Of a stretch of DNA of 64,000 bases, positions 11,949 to 25,063 are shown one piece after another. Position numbers and translations under genes: made by a program. The notes under the pieces are model-generated. The model made no database searches. It was not told the origin of the DNA and saw only the letters and a list, made by a program, of their open reading frames with translations. The stretch's first letter is position 1, and each line of letters starts with the position of its first letter. Source of the stretch: Ensifer adhaerens (GTDB taxonomy: Bacteria > Pseudomonadota > Alphaproteobacteria > Rhizobiales > Rhizobiaceae); the NCBI RefSeq assembly GCF_002940685.1, contig NZ_PNFP01000010.1, positions 186,001 to 250,000 of the forward strand. The letters are read 5' to 3'.

Positions 11949-11972
11949 GGAGCGGGCGCTTCGTCCCGCTCC
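11949..11972 (-). terminator. Hairpin after tctC
   Basis: GGAGCGGG (11949-11956) pairs with CCCGCTCC (11965-11972); on the leftward strand a T-containing CTTGTTTGCC follows. It lies 10 bp beyond the tctC stop, before tctB. This position usually gives high binding-protein and lower permease expression by partial termination. Confidence 0.6.
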
Positions 11973-11982
11973 GGCCGGTATG

Positions 11983-12954
11983 TTACATGCCGGCTTCCTT
12001 GGCGATGATCTTGAAGCGTGCCACATCGGCCTTGACCTGCTGGTCGAAGGCATCGCCCACTTGGGTATATTCGTAGAGACCGCGCGCCTCGCGCTCCTTC
12101 ACGAATTCCGGCGTTGCGACGAGCTTGGTGAAGGCATCGGCCCACCATTTGTAGTCGGCGTCGGAGACATCCTTGCCGACATAGTAGCCGCGCCAGACCG
12201 GCCATTCGATGTCGACGCCCTGTTCCTTGGCGGTCGGCACTTCGGCGAGTTCACCCGGCAGGCGTTCGGGCGCCATGACCGCGAGCACCCGGACCTTGCC
12301 GGCCGCATGGTGCTTGGACATTTCCGCCGCATCGCCGGCGCCGACCTTGACGTGGCCGCCTTCGAGCGCCGTCAGCACAGCACCTCCGCCTTCGAGCGCG
12401 ACATAGCGCATCTCCTTCGGCTCCTGTCCGGCCGCCTTTGCGAGCAGCGAGCCCTTCATCCAGTCCTGCGAGCCGACGGCGCCGCCGCCGGCGACCGAGA
12501 AGTCGGTCGGACTTGCCTTGTAGGCGGCGATCAGTTCGCTGAGGCTCTTGTAGGGCGAATCGGCGGCAACGACGAGCACGCCATAGTCGGCGCCGAGCGC
12601 GCCGAGCCAGCGCACGGCGGTCTCGTCATATTGGCCGAACTTGCCCTGGGCGATCAAAAGCGCCGAGCCGGACGAGGCGGCGGTGATCAGGTTGCCGTCT
12701 GAGCCGCGCTTGCCGATGACATGGTTGTAGGCAACCGCACCGACGCCCCCTTCCATGTAGGTGACGGCCATCGGCTTGCCGATGATCTTGGCTTCGAGCA
12801 GCGCATTGGCGGCAAGCCGGCAAGTCAGGTCGAAGCCGCCGCCGGGCTTGGCGCCGGCGAGGCACTCGGGCTTGGAAGGTTCGGCACCGGCCGGCGATGC
12901 CACGGCGGCGAAAAGGCCGGCCGCCAGAAGGGTCTTCACAAAGGTTCGGGTCAT
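11983..12954 (-). CDS. tctC: Tripartite tricarboxylate transporter substrate-binding protein TctC
   Basis: A 323-residue periplasmic binding protein. The signal peptide is residues 1-24 (FVKTLLAAGLFAAVASPAGA, cleavage before EPSK). The CLAGAKPGGGFDLTCR segment and MEGGVGAVAYN are typical of the TctC/BugD family. The ATG at 12954 is preceded by GGGAGAGAGACC; codons further upstream do not look coding. It is first in tctCBA and divergent from tctDE, the two-component system that activates tct genes in Salmonella. The ligand is a carboxylate, possibly linked to the dehydratase operon downstream, but this is only suggested by proximity. Confidence 0.9.
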   Translation of the reverse strand: MTRTFVKTLLAAGLFAAVASPAGAEPSKPECLAGAKPGGGFDLTCRLAANALLEAKIIGKPMAVTYMEGGVGAVAYNHVIGKRGSDGNLITAASSGSALLIAQGKFGQYDETAVRWLGALGADYGVLVVAADSPYKSLSELIAAYKASPTDFSVAGGGAVGSQDWMKGSLLAKAAGQEPKEMRYVALEGGGAVLTALEGGHVKVGAGDAAEMSKHHAAGKVRVLAVMAPERLPGELAEVPTAKEQGVDIEWPVWRGYYVGKDVSDADYKWWADAFTKLVATPEFVKEREARGLYEYTQVGDAFDQQVKADVARFKIIAKEAGM

Positions 12955-16426: not shown

Positions 16427-16936
16427 CTATCGCCCGCCGCTGCGCCAGGCGCACAGCATGTGGTCGAGCGACAGCCTGCCCGGGCCGGAGGCCATCAGCG
16501 CGAGCGCCATGGCGGCCCAGGTAATGTGGATCGGCCAGCCGTCAGGTACGGTCAGTTGCACGACGATCGTCATGACGAGCAGGCCGAGGGCGGCAAAGCG
16601 CGTTCCCAGGCCGAAGACAAGCAGCATGGGCAGAACGATTTCCGCCGAACCGGCTGCAAAAGCCATCACGGCGGGAGCGGGGTAGGGATAGGGACCGCCC
16701 GGCAGATGCAGCCGGAACTCCGAACTGAAGAGCAGCACCGCCACGTCGTTCAATTGCAGGAAGCCGTCCCACTTGCTCATTCCGGACCGGAAGAACGGAA
16801 CGGCAAGGCCGAAGCGCAGGACAAGCTGGGAGAGCCAGAGCGGCGCGAGCGCGCCGACGACGCGGTTCGCCCGGCGGCCCCATTGCGACAGGTCGGCGGG
16901 ATCGCCGTTCCGTGAAAATCTGGAAGCGGACATCAT
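16427..16936 (-). CDS. bufD: DoxX family membrane protein of bufferin cluster (BufD-like)
   Basis: A 169-residue inner-membrane protein of the DoxX family with about four helices. Typical segments are LVLRFGLAVPFFRSGMSKWDGF and the following KWDGFLQLNDVAVLLFSSEF, then helices up to WPIHITWAAMAL. The ATG at 16936 follows GGAGGATGAAACC, which overlaps the stop codon region of the DUF2063 gene, so the two are coupled. DoxX proteins close many MNIO/DUF2282 operons, where the name BufD has been used. Its function is not established; a role in redox or metal handling at the membrane is a guess. A frame extending to 17095 is not coding. Confidence 0.85.
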   Translation of the reverse strand: MMSASRFSRNGDPADLSQWGRRANRVVGALAPLWLSQLVLRFGLAVPFFRSGMSKWDGFLQLNDVAVLLFSSEFRLHLPGGPYPYPAPAVMAFAAGSAEIVLPMLLVFGLGTRFAALGLLVMTIVVQLTVPDGWPIHITWAAMALALMASGPGRLSLDHMLCAWRSGGR

Positions 16937-16940
16937 GGTT

Positions 16941-17744
16941 TCATCCTCCGAGATGAATGGCCGTAAAGGCACCGGCCTCGAGCGCGGTGGCAATGGCGGC
17001 GGCGAGATCAAGCGTGGGCGATTGTATTGCAGCTTCCGCGGCAGCCGCGGCGAGGGGAACGCCCGCAAGCAGCCGCAAAAGCAGGAGATCGGCACCGGGA
17101 GTAAGCATGCGAAGCATGACCTCCAGGTCGGGCCGGGTGATCAGCGCGCTCTCCGGCGCGGACGTTTCGATGCGCCCGACCGGCCCACGCGCGCGGTTGA
17201 CGGCAAAGATCGTCGCGGCCGGATAGGCGGACCGGACGAGCCTGGCTGCCGGATGCGCTTCGAAGACCACGTCGCCGAGCCGCTCGGGCGCAATCAGCGA
17301 AAGTGCAGCAGGTGGAAGCGCGGCGGCATCGGCGGCGTGATAGGCGTCGAGCCAGGCCCGCTCGATCCTGGCCACGTCGGCAAGCCAGGGCATGGCTCGG
17401 GCGTACTCGTAGCGAGCGATGAAATCGGGAAAGTCGCGGCCATATTCGAAGAGCAGCGGCGAGACCGGCGGCGTTTCGCGCACATGAAAGCGCGCCATCG
17501 CGCGAAAGAAGGTCTCGCCGGTGATGCGCTCCGTCGCCGGGAAGGTCGCTGCCAGCGCTTCGATCAGGCTGACGGTGACGTTGTTGCGGTAGACGTTGAA
17601 GCGTTTGACCGCCGCCTTGCCGTTCGGGCCGGTGACCAGTGCCGGCGTCGGCTGGTCGGGCGCAAGCAATGGCGGCACGAAACCGGCGGCGTAGCTGCCC
17701 GTGCCGCCGGCCGGCATGGGGAGCATCCCGTCAGGCGCGGACAC
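16941..17744 (-). CDS. bufC: DUF2063 protein, MNIO partner (BufC-like)
   Basis: A 267-residue protein of family DUF2063, recognised by [23 protein letters not shown] and the following [19 protein letters not shown]. In characterised MNIO systems the DUF2063-type partner helps bring the precursor peptide to the oxidase. The start chosen is the GTG at 17744, with GGGAG eight bases upstream; it overlaps the end of the MNIO gene by 14 bases, so translation is coupled. An ATG at 17726 is possible. The position between bufB and the DoxX gene is the standard bufABCD order. Confidence 0.87.
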
Positions 17745-18657
17745 GGATCTTCTCCCGCGACGTGCGCTGTCCGTGAGCATCGAGGATTGCCTGCGCCGCC
17801 GTGGCCTCACGCTTCAGCACCGGCCAATCCGGAATGGCGCTGTCCCATTCGATCAGCGTCGGGATGGCGCCGATCCTGCCGATGACGATCTCATAGAGTT
17901 TCCAGACGGCGTCGCCGACCGGGCCGTCATGGCTGTCGATCAGGAGCAGGTCACCCTCGTCGTCCTCCTGCTCGGCGTGCCCGGCAAGGTGGATTTCTCC
18001 GACATGTTCCAGCGGGAAGTCGGCGAGATAGGCAAGTGCCGAATAGCCCTGGTTGGTGGCGGAAACGAAGACATTGTTGATGTCGAGCAGCAGCCCGCAG
18101 CCGGTGCGTCTCGCCAATTCGCGAATGAACGCCGTCTCGCTCATCGTAGATTCGATGAAGGCGACATAGGTCGAGGGATTTTCGAGCAGCAGCCGGCGGC
18201 TGATCGTTTCCTGGACCTCGTCGATATGCGCGGCGACACGGGCAAGTGTGGCCTCGGTATAGGGCAGCGGCAAGAGGTCGTTGTAAAAGGTGGTCTCGTG
18301 GGTCGACCAGGCAAGATGCTCGGAGACGAGCGCCGGTTCGTAGCGCTCGACCAGATCCTTGAACCGGGCGAGATGCCCCTTGTCGAGCGGCTGCGGCCCG
18401 CCGATCGACATGCACACGCCATGCAGGGAGACCGGAAAATCCTCGCGGATCCGGGAGAGCGCGGCATGCGGCGGTCCGCCGGCGCCCATATAGTTTTCCG
18501 CGTGAACCTCGAAGAAACCGCCGGGTCTATCGTCGGCAAGGATAGCCGACAAATGCTGGTGCTTGAAGCTGGTGCCGGCAAGGCCGGCGATCTCATGTTT
18601 CGCGAAGCACTGGCTGACCAATGCAAGCCGGCTGCCGTTATCTGCTGAAGCGCTCAT
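17731..18657 (-). CDS. bufB: MNIO (DUF692) multinuclear non-heme iron oxidase, BufB-like
   Basis: A 308-residue TIM-barrel protein of the DUF692/MNIO family, enzymes that use two or three iron ions and O2 to modify cysteines of ribosomal peptides (MbnB, TglH, bufferin BufB). Expected metal-ligand motifs are present in order: [56 protein letters not shown] and DSHDGPV. It lies directly after a DUF2282 precursor gene and overlaps the DUF2063 partner gene. I infer that it converts precursor cysteines into thiooxazole-type heterocycles, as reported for Caulobacter bufferins. The ATG at 18657 begins MSASADNG; upstream codons are rejected. Confidence 0.92.
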
Positions 18658-18688
18658 CGCCCAATCCCGTTTCCATTCGTGTGGTGTC

Positions 18689-18716
18689 GGTGGCGAACGA
18701 TCCTCCGCCCGCCACC
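18689..18716 (-). other. Stem-loop between bufA and bufB
   Basis: GGTGGCG (18689-18695) pairs with CGCCACC (18710-18716) in the 123-bp gap downstream of the precursor gene. No T-run follows. A hairpin here would let the short precursor transcript be more abundant than the enzyme genes, as is common in RiPP operons; this role is inferred. Confidence 0.45.
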
Positions 18717-18780
18717 GTTTCGCGAGATCTGGATGCGGAACGGGACGCGATTGCCCGCGCCCCATTCCGCCTGCGACGGA

Positions 18781-19107
18781 TCAGGACGGCATGTCGCGGG
18801 ACAGCGGCTCGGGCGAACCCATGCGACCATCGGGCAGCTTCATCGTGGTGCAGGTGCCGCCATCGACGAATTTCCAGGCATTGCCCTGGTAGTCGACCGT
18901 CGAGGTCGCCTGGCAGGTCGTGCCCGGTCCGGCTGCGCAATCGTTCTGGCCCTTCAGCGCAACGCCGAAGCATTTTTCCTTGCCCGCATCCATCGCGGTC
19001 TTGACCTGCGCTTCGGTGAGCGGGGCCGCTACGGCGAGCGACGACAGGGCGGCGGCCACTGCACTTGCCAGCATGGCGCTGCTGATGGTGGACTTCATGG
19101 ACATCAT
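18781..19107 (-). CDS. bufA: DUF2282 bufferin-type RiPP precursor
   Basis: A 108-residue precursor. Residues 4-28 form a Sec signal peptide (cleavage near [10 protein letters not shown]). The mature part has exactly four cysteines at 46, 57, 65 and 86, in the DUF2282 pattern [17 protein letters not shown], and GGTC preceded by a WK motif. Bufferins of this family are reported to be cysteine-modified by MNIO enzymes and to sequester copper in the periplasm. The first ATG (19107) has GGAG five bases upstream; a second ATG follows immediately. It heads the leftward bufABCD operon and has a SigF-like promoter. The C-terminal tail after residue 88 is proline/serine rich. Confidence 0.9.
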
Positions 19108-19163
19108 TCTATCTCCGTGTTGAACTGTTCCCGTGCGGCCTGTCTGAGGCGCACATCGGGTCT

Positions 19164-19190
19164 TTCGCCGCGGAGGTGTCGGGCGTTACA
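19164..19190 (-). promoter_or_regulatory. SigF-type ECF promoter for bufABCD
   Basis: On the leftward strand TGTAAC (19190-19185) is followed after 17 bases by CGAA (19167-19164). The expected start is about 50 bases before the bufA ATG. The motif matches the GTAACC / CGAA elements described for Caulobacter SigF, from memory of that work. Confidence 0.6.
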
Positions 19191-19268
19191 TAACGTCGGC
19201 AACACGCTTTCGTGATGGGTTCGCGAGGTCTGTCCAAGCAGACAGCGGCCGCGAATTTGGGATAGCCG

Positions 19269-19294
19269 TGTAACAAAAGCCGGGAATCGGCGAA
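19269..19294 (+). promoter_or_regulatory. SigF-type ECF promoter for sigF-nrsF
   Basis: TGTAAC (19269-19274) is followed after 16 bases by CGAA (19291-19294), about 20 bases before the sigF GTG. It is the same signature as the divergent bufA promoter, so SigF probably activates its own operon. Confidence 0.6.
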
Positions 19295-19312
19295 TGGGGA
19301 GGAAGGGCCCGG

Positions 19313-19849
19313 GTGAGCGGCGCGGACGACGAACATCTTGCAAGGCTCCTTCGCGCTGCCGTGGCCGGTGACGAAAAGGCCTATGCCGACTTCCTGCGGG
19401 ACGCAGCACTGGTGATCCGTGGCTGGGCTCGCCGCTGGACTGTCAGCGGCGGTGTCGATGCGGAGGATGTCGTGCAGGAGGCGCTGCTCGCGGCGCACGT
19501 CAAGCGCCATACCTGGCGGGAGGACGCGCCTGTCATTCCCTGGCTGCATGCGATCGCCAGGCACAAATACGTCGATGCCGTGCGTCGTCAGGCCCGCCGC
19601 CCGACGGTGGGCATCGAGGAGTTCGAGGAAACACTTGCGAGCGCGGAAACCGAAAAGGTCCGCGACTGGGAGATCGGCCGGGCGCTGGACGGGCTCGCTC
19701 CGGGCCAGCGTTCCGTCGTCAATGCGATTTCGATCGAGGGATGCACGGTGGCTGAAACGGCGCAAAGACTGGACATGAACGAAACGGCGGTTCGCGTGGC
19801 GCTTCACCGTGGCCTGGCCGCAATCGCACGGCGATTTGGACGAAACTGA
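19313..19849 (+). CDS. sigF: ECF sigma factor SigF
   Basis: A 178-residue extracytoplasmic-function sigma factor with region 2 (VDAEDVVQEALLAAHVKRHTW, promoter -10 recognition) and region 4 (SIEGCTVAETAQRLDMNETAVRVALHRGL, helix-turn-helix for -35). The GTG at 19313 follows GGAGGAAGG. The stop is one base before the start of the DUF1109 anti-sigma gene, and the pair is divergent from bufABCD. In Caulobacter and Bradyrhizobium such SigF/EcfF-NrsF pairs respond to copper, chromate or peroxide stress and drive MNIO/DUF2282 genes. The conserved promoter motif on both sides supports the same regulon here. Confidence 0.9.
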   Translation: MSGADDEHLARLLRAAVAGDEKAYADFLRDAALVIRGWARRWTVSGGVDAEDVVQEALLAAHVKRHTWREDAPVIPWLHAIARHKYVDAVRRQARRPTVGIEEFEETLASAETEKVRDWEIGRALDGLAPGQRSVVNAISIEGCTVAETAQRLDMNETAVRVALHRGLAAIARRFGRN

Positions 19850-19850
19850 G

Positions 19851-20489
19851 ATGGACACGAACGACCTCATCAAGGCACTTGCCGCCGATACAAGGCGTCC
19901 CGGATTGTCGATGTCTGCTGCCTGGGCGGGGGCCGGCATCGGCGCGCTCGTTCTCGCCGGGTTCGTATTCTCGGTTCTTCTCGGGCCGCGGCCGGACATT
20001 GCCGCCGCCGCCGAAACGCTGCGCTTCCTGTTCAAGTTCGTGGTCGCCATTGCGCTGGCGGCGACCGCCTTTGCGGCCGTACGCGCCGCGGCCAGGCCCG
20101 AGGCGGACCTGCGCAGGCTGCTGCCCTATCTCGCCACTGCGCCGGTCATGGTGGCGGCAAGCGTCGTGCTCGAACTCTTCGTCGCGCCTTCCGATACATG
20201 GGCAACGAGGTTGATCGGCACGAACAGCCTCGTCTGCCTGACGTTCATACCGCTGATCGGGCTCGCGCCGCTGGCGCTGTTCCTGCTGGCGTTGCGCCAT
20301 GGCGCGCCGTCCCGTCCGGAACTCTCCGGCGCGTTTGCAGGGCTTGCTGCCGGCGGCATCGCTGCGACCTTCTATGCGGCGCACTGCCCGGACGATTCGC
20401 CGCTCTTCGTCGCGACCTGGTACACGATCGCGGTCCTCATCCTAACGGTGCTTGGGGCGTTGGGCGGCCGCTGGGCCATTCGCTGGTAG
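19851..20489 (+). CDS. nrsF: DUF1109 anti-sigma factor NrsF
   Basis: A 212-residue inner-membrane protein with six predicted helices (family DUF1109). A short cytosolic N-terminus (MDTNDLIKALAADTRRPG) probably binds SigF. Two conserved cysteines lie near the periplasmic side: C123 in LVCLTF and C180 in AAHCPDDSP; in the Caulobacter protein such cysteines are needed for metal-stress sensing. The ATG at 19851 is separated from the sigF stop by one base. It holds SigF inactive until stress. A terminator follows. Confidence 0.88.
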   Translation: MDTNDLIKALAADTRRPGLSMSAAWAGAGIGALVLAGFVFSVLLGPRPDIAAAAETLRFLFKFVVAIALAATAFAAVRAAARPEADLRRLLPYLATAPVMVAASVVLELFVAPSDTWATRLIGTNSLVCLTFIPLIGLAPLALFLLALRHGAPSRPELSGAFAGLAAGGIAATFYAAHCPDDSPLFVATWYTIAVLILTVLGALGGRWAIRW

Positions 20490-20522
20490 GCTGGCGATAG
20501 CGATTGCCGGCACTGAAAACAA

Positions 20523-20547
20523 AAAAGGCCGGCAATGCCGACCTTTT
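20523..20547 (+). terminator. Terminator of sigF-nrsF, with alternative pairing
   Basis: AAAAGG-C-CGGC (20523-20533) pairs with GCCG-A-CCTTTT (20537-20547) around AAT, one mismatch, giving a T-rich 3' arm. A competing perfect 9-bp pairing, ATTGCCGGC (20503-20511) with GCCGGCAAT (20528-20536), would disrupt it. The remaining DNA to 20732 holds no convincing gene. Confidence 0.65.
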
Positions 20548-20732
20548 CCCGCTCGCTGCGTCACACTGCCAGTACATCCGTGGTCAGCGTCTGCGCGCGA
20601 ACTACGCCCGGAGCCTTCGGTTGATCAGATCCGGCGGGCTCCACGGGCAATTCGTTGATGCCTATGTGTGGTGCCACGTCAGGGATTTCAAGCCCGCGTC
20701 AGAGATCGCCACCGGCGATACTGACCCTTGCG

Positions 20733-21678: not shown

Positions 21679-21763
21679 TTCATCGAACTCTTCCGCTCAT
21701 CAACACCATCGCCGTGAAGGTCTTGTGACGGAGCGTGTTCGCATCGCGACATTGGAGCAGATA

Positions 21764-24700
21764 ATGAAACAACGTGGACACGACCTCCGCGGGGTGCGGA
21801 GCTTTGCGCGCCTCAAGCAACCGTTGCGGCTGGCGACGGCGATCCTTCTGTGCGGAACGAGCCTGACGCTCTCGGCGGCTGAGGCGCGCGCCGCCGACGA
21901 CAGCATGAAGATCCTGACGCTCAACACCTGGCTCGACCGCTTCAAGGCCAACCCGAGCGTCATGTCGGACTTCTTCATCAAGGGGAACTACGACATCCTG
22001 ACCTTCCAGGAGTTCCGCGCCAACAGCACCTACGCGCGCGATATTCCGGGCATTCTTCAAAATGCCGGTCTTGGGACCTATGGCACGCGTCAGGATGGTG
22101 ATACCGGCGTGTTCTCGCGCCTGCCCGGCACCTTCGGCGCCAGCACGCTCGGCGATATCGTGACCTATACGGTGGTCGACCCGACCGTCAGCAAGCCGCA
22201 GGTGGTCGTCGGAACCACCCACCTCAACTACTACGACCCGCCGACGACCCGCATCAGCGAGGCCAAGGGCATCAATCAATGGGCGAAGTCGGAGATGCGG
22301 CCGATCATCCTCACCGGTGACTTCAACGCCGGCGACGTTTCGGAGCGCGGCCTGCATTCGGTCAGCCAGCAGGAACTGCTGCTGAAAACCTACGTCAAGA
22401 ACCCGACCAACAGCTTCTACATGAGCCTGTTGCGCGATTATGCGAAGGACCAGCAGAAGCTGGACGCCTACATCGCCGAGTGGAAGGGCAAGAGTGCTTC
22501 GGCGATCAACGCCTCGACGGTGCCTTCGGGCCTCTTTGCCGACGAGATGTACCCGGTTGCCGGCAACCTGCCGCAGACGATGAACATCCTGAAGAAGCAG
22601 TTCCAGCTCCTGCAGCTTCCGAGCGAGCGCGAGCAGTTCTCGCCGCATGGCTTGAACGACGGCAGCGTCACCTGGCCGTCGCATGGCGAGGACGCCACCA
22701 ACACCTGGGCGAGCTGGCACCGGGTGAAGATCGACCATTTCCTGGCGTCGCGCCCCTTCGGCAAGTGGTGGACGCTCGCCGACGATCCGAAGGATCCCTA
22801 TTCCGGCGTGATCGCCGATGCCGGCTACGTGACCAATCCGGATGGATCGAAGACACCGCTTTCGGACCACGAGCCGGTTGCCCACACGGTGCGCTGGGTC
22901 GGTCCGGTGCTGCAGAACTATACCGATCCGGCGACGGCGGCTGCCAAGACCAGGGTCGTCTGGGGCGACGAGGCATCGACCTTCGCCGAGAAGGGCGGGG
23001 TGTTCAATCTCAGCCGCAACAACATGCGCAATGACGTCTATCTCGGCCAGATCGCCGACGAGAACGGTCTGCCGATCCTTTCCGGCCTCACGGACCAGGA
23101 GAAGAAGACGCTGCTCGACTGCAAGAGCACGGACGGCCGCTTCCAGCAGGCCATCCGCGACTATTGCATCGACGATCACTCCTTCATCGGCGAAACGCTG
23201 GTGACCGATGGCGGCACGGTGGTGGTCGAAGAGGACGCGGCGCTCGGCAGCGCTGCGGCAAAGCTCCGCCTCGACGGCGGCGCGCTCAGGATCGCCGGTC
23301 GTGACATGCACCAGATCAACCGCGACATCGTGCTTGAGGCGGGCGGTGGTGCGCTCGACGTGGCCGATGTCGGCAACATCGTCGCCGTCAACAAGGTGAT
23401 CAGCGGCAGCGGTGGGCTCACCAAGCTCGGCGCCGGCGCCCTGGTGCTCAACGGCCAGAACACCTATACCGGCGCGACCGTCGTCAAGTCCGGCCTGCTT
23501 TCGGTCCAGGGCTCGATTGCCTCGTCCTCGGGGCTGTCAATCGAAAAGGATGGCGCCATCGGCGGCATCGGTACCTTTGGCAGCATCACGATCGCCGACG
23601 GCGGCGTGGTTGCGCCCGGCAATTCGATCGGAACCCTCAACGTCGCCGGCGATATCAATCTTGCGGCTGGTTCGACCTATGAGGTCGAAGTCAACGACAA
23701 GGGCGAGAGCGACAAGATCGTCGCGTCAGGCAAGGCGACGCTCAACGGCGGTTCGGTCCTGGCGCTGGCCGCCAATGGCAGCTACGCGCCGCAGACCCGC
23801 TACACGATCCTGACGGCTGCCGGCGGCGTGACCGGCACCTTTGGCGACGTTACGTCGAGCCTCGTTTTCCTCGACCCGACACTTGGCTACGACCCCAACA
23901 GCGTGACGTTGACGCTCAGCCGCAATAACATCCGCTTCGCTGATGTCACGGCGACCGCCAACCAGCGGGCCGCGGCGATCGGAGCCGAAAACCTCGGCTT
24001 CTCCAATGCCGCCTATGCCGCGCTCACCAACCTCGATCGCGATCAGGCGCGCTTTGCCTTCGATCAGCTCTCCGGCGAAATCCACGCCTCGACCAAGGGC
24101 ATGCTGCTGCAGGATGGGCTGCTTTTGAACGCCGCGGCAACAAACCGCATCCGCGCTGCCTTCGGCGACGCCAGCACCAAGGCGGTGCCGGTGCTTGCCT
24201 ATGGCGAGGGCGGCATCGAAAGCGTTGCGGCCGATACCGACCGCTTCGCCTTCTGGAGCCAGGCCTTCGGCACTTGGGGCGATACCGACGGTAACGGCAA
24301 TGCAGCCGGGTTCCAGCGCAACACCGGCGGGTTCCTCATGGGCGGCGACGGTCTTGTCGGCGACGCCTGGCGTGTCGGTATCCTCGGCGGCTACAGCCGT
24401 TCGTCCTTCGATGTCGTCGACCGCCGCTCGTCCGGTGACAGCGACAACTACCACATCGGCGCCTATGCCGGGACCGGGCTCGGCGCGCTGTCTCTGACGG
24501 CGGGCGCCACCTATAGCTGGCACCGCATCGAGACGTCGCGGAGCGTCGCGTTCGGCGGGTTCGACGACAGCCTGACGGCGGCCTATGATGCCCGCACCGC
24601 CCAGATCTTCGGCGAGGCGAGCTATGCCACGAGCGCCAGTCGTTTCGACTTCGAAGGCTTCGCCAACCTTGCCTATCTCAACCTCGACACCGACGGCTTC

Positions 24701-25063
24701 CGTGAAAAAGGCGGGGCGGCGGCCCTCTCGGGTCGCTCGGGCAATACCGACACGACGTTCACGACGATCGGCGTGCGGACGTCGACCGACGTTTCCTTCG
24801 GAGAAACCGCGGCGGTGCTCAGCGGCACCGTCGGCTGGCGCCATGCCTTCGGCGATGTGGTTCCGACCTCGACGCTTGCCTTTGCCGGCGGTCAGGACTT
24901 CACGGTCGCAGGTGCCCCGATCGCAAGGGATGCAGCGCTTGTGGAAGCGGGCATCGACTTCAAGATCGCCCCGACCGCCACCTTCGGCGTCAACTATACC
25001 GGCCAGATCGCCTCCGGTGTTTCCGAGCACGGCGTCAATGCCAAGCTGAAGGTGAGCTTCTAA
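21764..25063 (+). CDS. Autotransporter with endonuclease/exonuclease/phosphatase passenger
   Basis: A 1099-residue type V secreted protein. Residues 1-44 are an extended signal peptide. Residues 48-375 are an EEP-fold metal-dependent phosphodiesterase/phosphatase domain with its catalytic set intact: N54 (LTLNTW), E83 (FQEF), H153 (TTHLNYY), D186 and N188 (TGDFNAG), D324 (KIDHF), D368 and H369 (SDHEP). A PATR repeat follows (GAGALVLNGQNTYTGATVV, near residue 580), then beta-helix stalk and a C-terminal barrel (about 820-1099) ending in F. The ATG at 21764 has GGAG six bases upstream. It probably cleaves extracellular DNA or phosphoesters at the cell surface. Divergent DeoR control is likely. 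Substrate unknown. Confidence 0.9.
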   Translation: MKQRGHDLRGVRSFARLKQPLRLATAILLCGTSLTLSAAEARAADDSMKILTLNTWLDRFKANPSVMSDFFIKGNYDILTFQEFRANSTYARDIPGILQNAGLGTYGTRQDGDTGVFSRLPGTFGASTLGDIVTYTVVDPTVSKPQVVVGTTHLNYYDPPTTRISEAKGINQWAKSEMRPIILTGDFNAGDVSERGLHSVSQQELLLKTYVKNPTNSFYMSLLRDYAKDQQKLDAYIAEWKGKSASAINASTVPSGLFADEMYPVAGNLPQTMNILKKQFQLLQLPSEREQFSPHGLNDGSVTWPSHGEDATNTWASWHRVKIDHFLASRPFGKWWTLADDPKDPYSGVIADAGYVTNPDGSKTPLSDHEPVAHTVRWVGPVLQNYTDPATAAAKTRVVWGDEASTFAEKGGVFNLSRNNMRNDVYLGQIADENGLPILSGLTDQEKKTLLDCKSTDGRFQQAIRDYCIDDHSFIGETLVTDGGTVVVEEDAALGSAAAKLRLDGGALRIAGRDMHQINRDIVLEAGGGALDVADVGNIVAVNKVISGSGGLTKLGAGALVLNGQNTYTGATVVKSGLLSVQGSIASSSGLSIEKDGAIGGIGTFGSITIADGGVVAPGNSIGTLNVAGDINLAAGSTYEVEVNDKGESDKIVASGKATLNGGSVLALAANGSYAPQTRYTILTAAGGVTGTFGDVTSSLVFLDPTLGYDPNSVTLTLSRNNIRFADVTATANQRAAAIGAENLGFSNAAYAALTNLDRDQARFAFDQLSGEIHASTKGMLLQDGLLLNAAATNRIRAAFGDASTKAVPVLAYGEGGIESVAADTDRFAFWSQAFGTWGDTDGNGNAAGFQRNTGGFLMGGDGLVGDAWRVGILGGYSRSSFDVVDRRSSGDSDNYHIGAYAGTGLGALSLTAGATYSWHRIETSRSVAFGGFDDSLTAAYDARTAQIFGEASYATSASRFDFEGFANLAYLNLDTDGFREKGGAAALSGRSGNTDTTFTTIGVRTSTDVSFGETAAVLSGTVGWRHAFGDVVPTSTLAFAGGQDFTVAGAPIARDAALVEAGIDFKIAPTATFGVNYTGQIASGVSEHGVNAKLKVSF

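Follow-up and report, generated by a model that had tools for sequence, protein, structure and literature searches.

What does a six-gene locus in a 64,000-nt stretch of Ensifer adhaerens DNA (the window; contig NZ_PNFP01000010.1, positions 186,001 to 250,000) produce, and which stress switches it on? At window positions 16427-20489, bufA, bufB, bufC and bufD read leftward, and a gene for an extracytoplasmic function (ECF) sigma factor, sigF, and nrsF read rightward, divergently from them. Data from the present and previous studies suggest that the locus very probably encodes a copper-buffering bufferin (captophorin) of the Buf1 type, together with the SigF/NrsF switch that controls it. An orthologous locus has already been described in Sinorhizobium meliloti and Caulobacter, and that of the window is an ordinary, intact member of this known system.

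The first-pass annotation, made from the sequence alone, had read a DUF2282 precursor, an MNIO/DUF692 enzyme, a DUF2063 partner and a DoxX protein in one leftward set, divergent from SigF and a DUF1109 NrsF. Profile searches, with domains called at Pfam cut-offs, bore this out: all six genes scored above a Pfam cut-off, at the place and on the strand proposed (Table 1), and the matches included the DUF2282, MNIO/DUF692, DUF2063 and NrsF families for which such a check had been suggested. NCBIfam models with curated cut-offs were used in addition, and here the bufB product exceeded MNIO_BufB (374.7 versus 310 bits) and the sigF product exceeded PRK12512.1. The nrsF product stayed below AntiSigF_NrsF (108.9 versus 300 bits) while exceeding the broader Pfam NrsF family, and matches to the HvfC and HvfX models lay below their cut-offs. 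BufA matched Cu_RiPP_BufA2 weakly, below its cut-off (19.7 versus 60 bits), and thus was not filed as a Buf2 precursor. Among solved structures, BufB matched 3bww best, followed by 8hci (a DUF692 family protein) and MbnB; for the bufC and nrsF products, no sequence match to a solved structure was obtained at E 0.001 and 0.01. In the genome (7.5 Mb, 81 contigs) there is a single match each to DUF2282, MNIO and NrsF, all at this locus, and the other sigma factor most similar to SigF shares 30% identity with it.

Table 1. Genes, predicted promoters and hairpin of the locus, in window coordinates
Feature	Position	Strand	Description
bufA	18781..19107	-	Buf1/DUF2282 precursor, 108 aa, Cys 46/57/65/86; PF10048 79.4 bits, E 1.9e-22
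bufB	17731..18657	-	MNIO (DUF692) enzyme, 308 aa (from the probable start); PF05114 MbnB_TglH_ChrH 345.1 bits, E 3.1e-103
bufC	16941..17726	-	DUF2063 partner protein, 261 aa; PF09836 84.6 bits, E 5.8e-24
bufD	16427..16936	-	DoxX-family membrane protein, 169 aa; PF07681 62.9 bits, E 4.4e-17
sigF	19313..19849	+	ECF sigma factor, 178 aa, GTG start; Sigma70_r4_2 46.3 bits, Sigma70_r2 43.6 bits
nrsF	19851..20489	+	Membrane anti-sigma factor, 212 aa; PF06532 181.2 bits, E 2.8e-53
Predicted SigF-type promoter of bufABCD	19164..19189	-	GTAAC-N17-CGAA, begins 82 nt upstream of bufA ATG
Predicted SigF-type promoter of sigF-nrsF (autoregulation)	19270..19294	+	GTAAC-N16-CGAA
Intercistronic hairpin bufA/bufB	18735..18770	-	16-bp stem, 4-nt loop

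Conservation was examined in 84 related loci, namely the top 80 among 580 confirmed matches to MNIO, selected by MNIO similarity, together with four further loci (L113-L116). The counts given here are not independent, since many of the loci come from closely related organisms (25 bear the title Bradyrhizobium). Matches were found to bufA in 83 of the 84 loci, to bufC in 84, to bufD in 81, to nrsF in 31 and to sigF in 26; some of the sigF and nrsF matches are distant or lie away from bufA, and a divergent sigF within 500 nt of bufA is present in 16. In L060, which has no bufA match, the match starts at the first base of the locus. Of the 83 relatives in which bufA matched, 77 have bufA-bufB-bufC-bufD in this order on one strand within less than 3.5 kb, which argues that the gene set has not come together by chance.

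The four cysteines that had been read in the precursor are present in the 108-aa BufA, and they are strongly conserved: in an alignment of 84 rows, Cys 46, 57 and 86 are invariant, and 83 rows have Cys 65. On inspection by eye, the N-terminus resembles a Sec signal peptide. The tail after the fourth cysteine, which the first-pass annotation had called unusually long and left without explanation, turned out to be the family norm. It has 22 residues, the commonest length (33 of the 83 relatives); a further 32 have 16 residues, one of them being L113, a copy with a seemingly broken frame, and the remainder have 15 to 34. An unusual tail was thus rejected, and nothing in it needs explaining. L113 (S. 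meliloti ABS7 pSymB) has neither bufA nor sigF annotated, and its bufA reading diverges from the relatives past the region of the third cysteine; strain ml46 (L124) does not share this oddity, which possibly reflects sequencing errors.

Both predicted SigF sites lie in the bufA-sigF intergenic stretch and face outward, and they match the Caulobacter SigF site, given as GTAACC-N16-CGAA (PMC3511200), in its GTAAC and CGAA parts. According to Table 1 of PMC6180224, the S. meliloti rpoE7 and SMb20530 promoters, mapped by rapid amplification of 5′ cDNA ends or earlier RNA-Seq, also carry GTAAC and CGAA, spaced 16 and 17 nt apart. The pattern occurs three times in the whole window versus 0.42 expected. 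The third match (11960-11986, minus strand, 18-nt spacer), upstream of a 152-aa open reading frame whose N-terminus resembles a membrane segment by eye, is probably a chance occurrence. When the 250 nt preceding bufA were scanned in the relatives for sites with a spacer of 15-18, a site was found in 67 of the 83, whereas mononucleotide shuffles predicted 0.14 loci; all spacers measured 16 or 17, and the sites began 68-88 nt upstream of the start. Such a site is present in 15 of the 16 relatives with a divergent sigF, 12 of which also have one on the sigF side, and in 52 of the 67 without a divergent sigF beside bufA.

NrsF has two conserved cysteines, in the motifs LVCLTFIP and AAHCPDDSP, and the pair is present in all 16 relatives with a divergent sigF. 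In Caulobacter this pair is described as periplasmic, and substitutions of the cysteines raise the expression of SigF-regulated genes (PMC3511200). The sigF product, which is 69% identical to that of the S. meliloti locus L113 across the matched part, would belong to the ECF16 group, judging from its orthology with S. meliloti RpoE7. The RpoE4 of the S. meliloti sulfite papers belongs to another sigma group, with a GGAAT/CGTC promoter (PMC3511301, PMC6527743).

Throughout the genome, the promoter pattern gave 68 matches versus 152 for a reversed control, so that the motif alone is uninformative at this scale. After filtering for a start codon and a ribosome-binding site around all 68 matches, seven distinct sites were left, two of which are those of the window locus. 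A wider SigF regulon was considered and not retained; among the other five sites, L153 was unsupported when inspected more closely, and L008 has an 18-nt spacer. For MsrPQ as a SigF target, no exact site was found in the five Oxidored_molyb loci of the genome; matches with one mismatch number four in L174 and one each in L172 and L173.

Compared with the S. meliloti pSymB locus, rpoE7-ecfR7/SMb20530-SMb20527, the window has the same six genes in the same divergent layout, with both promoters of the GTAAC...CGAA type (PMC6180224; L124); the two differ in sequence, 89% of the stretch matching at about 71% DNA identity. The Caulobacter locus CC3252-CC3257 (SigF-NrsF and Buf1), by its published description, has the same genes, SigF site and NrsF cysteines (PMC3511200). 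The bufferin and SigF-NrsF assignment of the first-pass annotation thus fits both published loci in families, gene order, NrsF cysteine pair and promoters. The SigF regulon of Caulobacter is described as also including MsrPQ and a second DUF2282/DUF692/DUF2063 operon, CC2907-CC2905, whereas the present genome has one bufferin operon. The gig operons of Cupriavidus metallidurans, named after gold induction, are reported to be bufferin clusters (PMC12452194), and they are likened to the window by description only. Bufferins are grouped with oxazolin and fontiphorin as captophorins, DUF2282 being one of three precursor groups (PMC13097082). By the same account, fontiphorin and oxazolin share with bufferins an MNIO, a PME1 partner and a link to copper, but their precursors consist of EGKCG repeats whereas that of the window is a DUF2282 protein.

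For Caulobacter Buf1, the two central cysteines are reported to become thiooxazoles and the outer two a disulphide, and the product chelates Cu(I) and Cu(II) (PMC12452194). Modification, export and copper binding of BufA in the present strain, as well as the inducer, we infer by analogy with these systems. Metal stress, most likely excess copper, would act through the periplasmic cysteine pair of NrsF, which otherwise restrains SigF; the SigF so released would transcribe its own operon and bufABCD from the two divergent GTAAC-N16/17-CGAA promoters. BufB with BufC would then convert Cys 57 and 65, the central pair of BufA, into thiooxazoles by oxidation; the outer pair, Cys 46 and 86, would form a disulphide, and the peptide, exported by Sec, would chelate copper in the periplasm. 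BufD would be an accessory membrane protein.

Several observations weigh against this mechanism. Promoter fusions of S. meliloti rpoE7 and SMb20530 are reported as unresponsive to H2O2, CdCl2 and K2CrO4 (PMC6180224), which leaves the rhizobial inducer unproven; the word copper appears once in the main text of that paper, on another protein, and no copper study of the rhizobial locus was found among the open-licence papers listed in the literature searches. The homologous gig cluster of C. metallidurans, induced by gold, silver and copper, is reported to be without effect on copper resistance, where other copper systems could mask one (PMC8224329). Moreover, BufA scores above the cut-off of no NCBIfam bufferin-precursor model. 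The unresponsive fusions and the gig data also favour another reading, in which the peptide chemistry is as proposed but the rhizobial switch answers a different stress, be it gold or silver, reactive sulfur or oxidised thiols, with copper buffering as a secondary role; a DoxX homologue has elsewhere been tied to oxidative or sulphur stress, according to the discussion in PMC12452194. However, the Caulobacter SigF regulon is reported to be induced by copper, and a sigF::Tn5 mutant is copper-sensitive, its growth with copper being severely impaired (PMC8224329). We consider such a reassignment of the switch unlikely, and a copper-buffering bufferin operon remains the preferred reading.

The system is patchily distributed. 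Of 297 genomes sampled across the family, 157 have a DUF2282 match, as do 13 of 16 genomes of the genus, three of the 13 with two copies, and the locus is reported missing from some S. meliloti strains (PMC6180224). Its absence from the remaining three genus genomes would suit a decayed or silent remnant, but all six frames are intact, the promoter sites and cysteines are conserved, and BufA shares 97% identity with its counterpart in E. adhaerens NER9 (L114), which together make decay extremely improbable. The locus probably lies on a megaplasmid, since the plasmids that match its whole 4 kb best are eight large ones of Ensifer (seven named E. adhaerens), with 81.3-85.4% identity, which also places the window in an Ensifer close to E. 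adhaerens. Identity falls to 79.6% in S. chiapasense, to about 72-73% in S. fredii and to about 71% in S. meliloti.

The start of bufB is probably ATG 18657 (308 aa) and not the in-frame ATG 18765 (344 aa), because the first 36 residues of the longer reading have no evident counterpart in the relatives compared and ATG 18765 falls within the hairpin between bufA and bufB. The bufB of S. meliloti ml46 is annotated as 309 aa. The other starts were placed at ATG 17726 for bufC, ATG 16936 for bufD and ATG 19851 for nrsF.

With this start, the bufA-bufB gap is 123 nt and folds at -65.4 kcal/mol (z -4.9 versus shuffles). Of 13 rows inspected (the window and 12 close relatives, 12 of the rows distinct), 11 show a clear stem at this position; it is weak in L122 and lacking in L188. 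The S. meliloti gap is short, unlike that of the window, and the hairpin is absent in the two strains looked at. RNAalifold on 12 sequences (window and close relatives) gave two-sided changes in 4 of 10 pairs and a covariation term of +0.13, so that covariation lends the hairpin weak support. A family-wide hairpin was rejected: in the 75 nt after the bufA stop, z ≤ -2 was reached in 6 of the 83 relatives versus 2, 4 and 2 in bufB/bufC controls and 20 inside bufA, with no excess over the pooled controls, and a longer stretch running into bufB gave 41 of 83, an uncontrolled count. The gap was also tried as a dispersed repeat and rejected, with one full match in the genome and 17 short, weak ones. 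The hairpin may keep the precursor in excess over the enzyme.

An Rfam scan of the window gave no family over its gathering score. The alphaproteobacterial small RNA ar35 (RF02346) matched at 20518-20638, minus strand, with 42.1 bits (E 1.1e-5; gathering score 45), and this match overlaps a terminator-like hairpin (20549-20521) downstream of nrsF. In three genus genomes (L117, L118 and L119) there are two neighbouring bufA genes of a shorter type, with no SigF site within 200 nt upstream, and a different strong hairpin follows one of the two copies.

A more elaborate reading joins three propositions, namely that the Ensifer module answers a stress other than the cadmium, chromate and peroxide to which its S. 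meliloti ortholog did not respond, that a lineage-specific bufA/bufB hairpin evolved for precursor excess, and that SigF acts on the operon in trans as a conserved target, the last because wider relatives keep the site upstream of bufA even without a divergent sigF. Taken jointly we regard them as a tentative possibility, more doubtful than not.

Complete bufABCD sets were also found on conjugative F-type plasmids of Escherichia coli (L115, NZ_CP025918.1) and Klebsiella quasipneumoniae (L116, NZ_AP026396.1). The former adjoins a TetR regulator, with no sigma factor or NrsF annotated within the 19-kb stretch, and the latter adjoins msrPQ, a sigma factor, a zf-HC2 protein and Tn7-like genes. Among complete E. 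coli genomes, 59 of 5426 have a bufA DNA match, and all 62 places are on plasmids. In the window itself, 21725-25063 (plus strand) encodes a 1112-aa autotransporter, whose passenger matches Exo_endo_phos (endonuclease/exonuclease/phosphatase), followed by a PATR repeat and a beta-barrel.

What the locus adds on its own is small: the bufB start at 18657, and a bufA/bufB hairpin in the window and most close relatives examined that is not family-wide. In other respects it adds a further example to a widespread system. It also links the RpoE7 regulon of S. meliloti to the later bufferin literature; a 2018 study had described that regulon as conserved hypothetical proteins unresponsive to the three stresses tried (PMC6180224). 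With this link, copper (or gold or silver) becomes the obvious candidate inducer in rhizobia.

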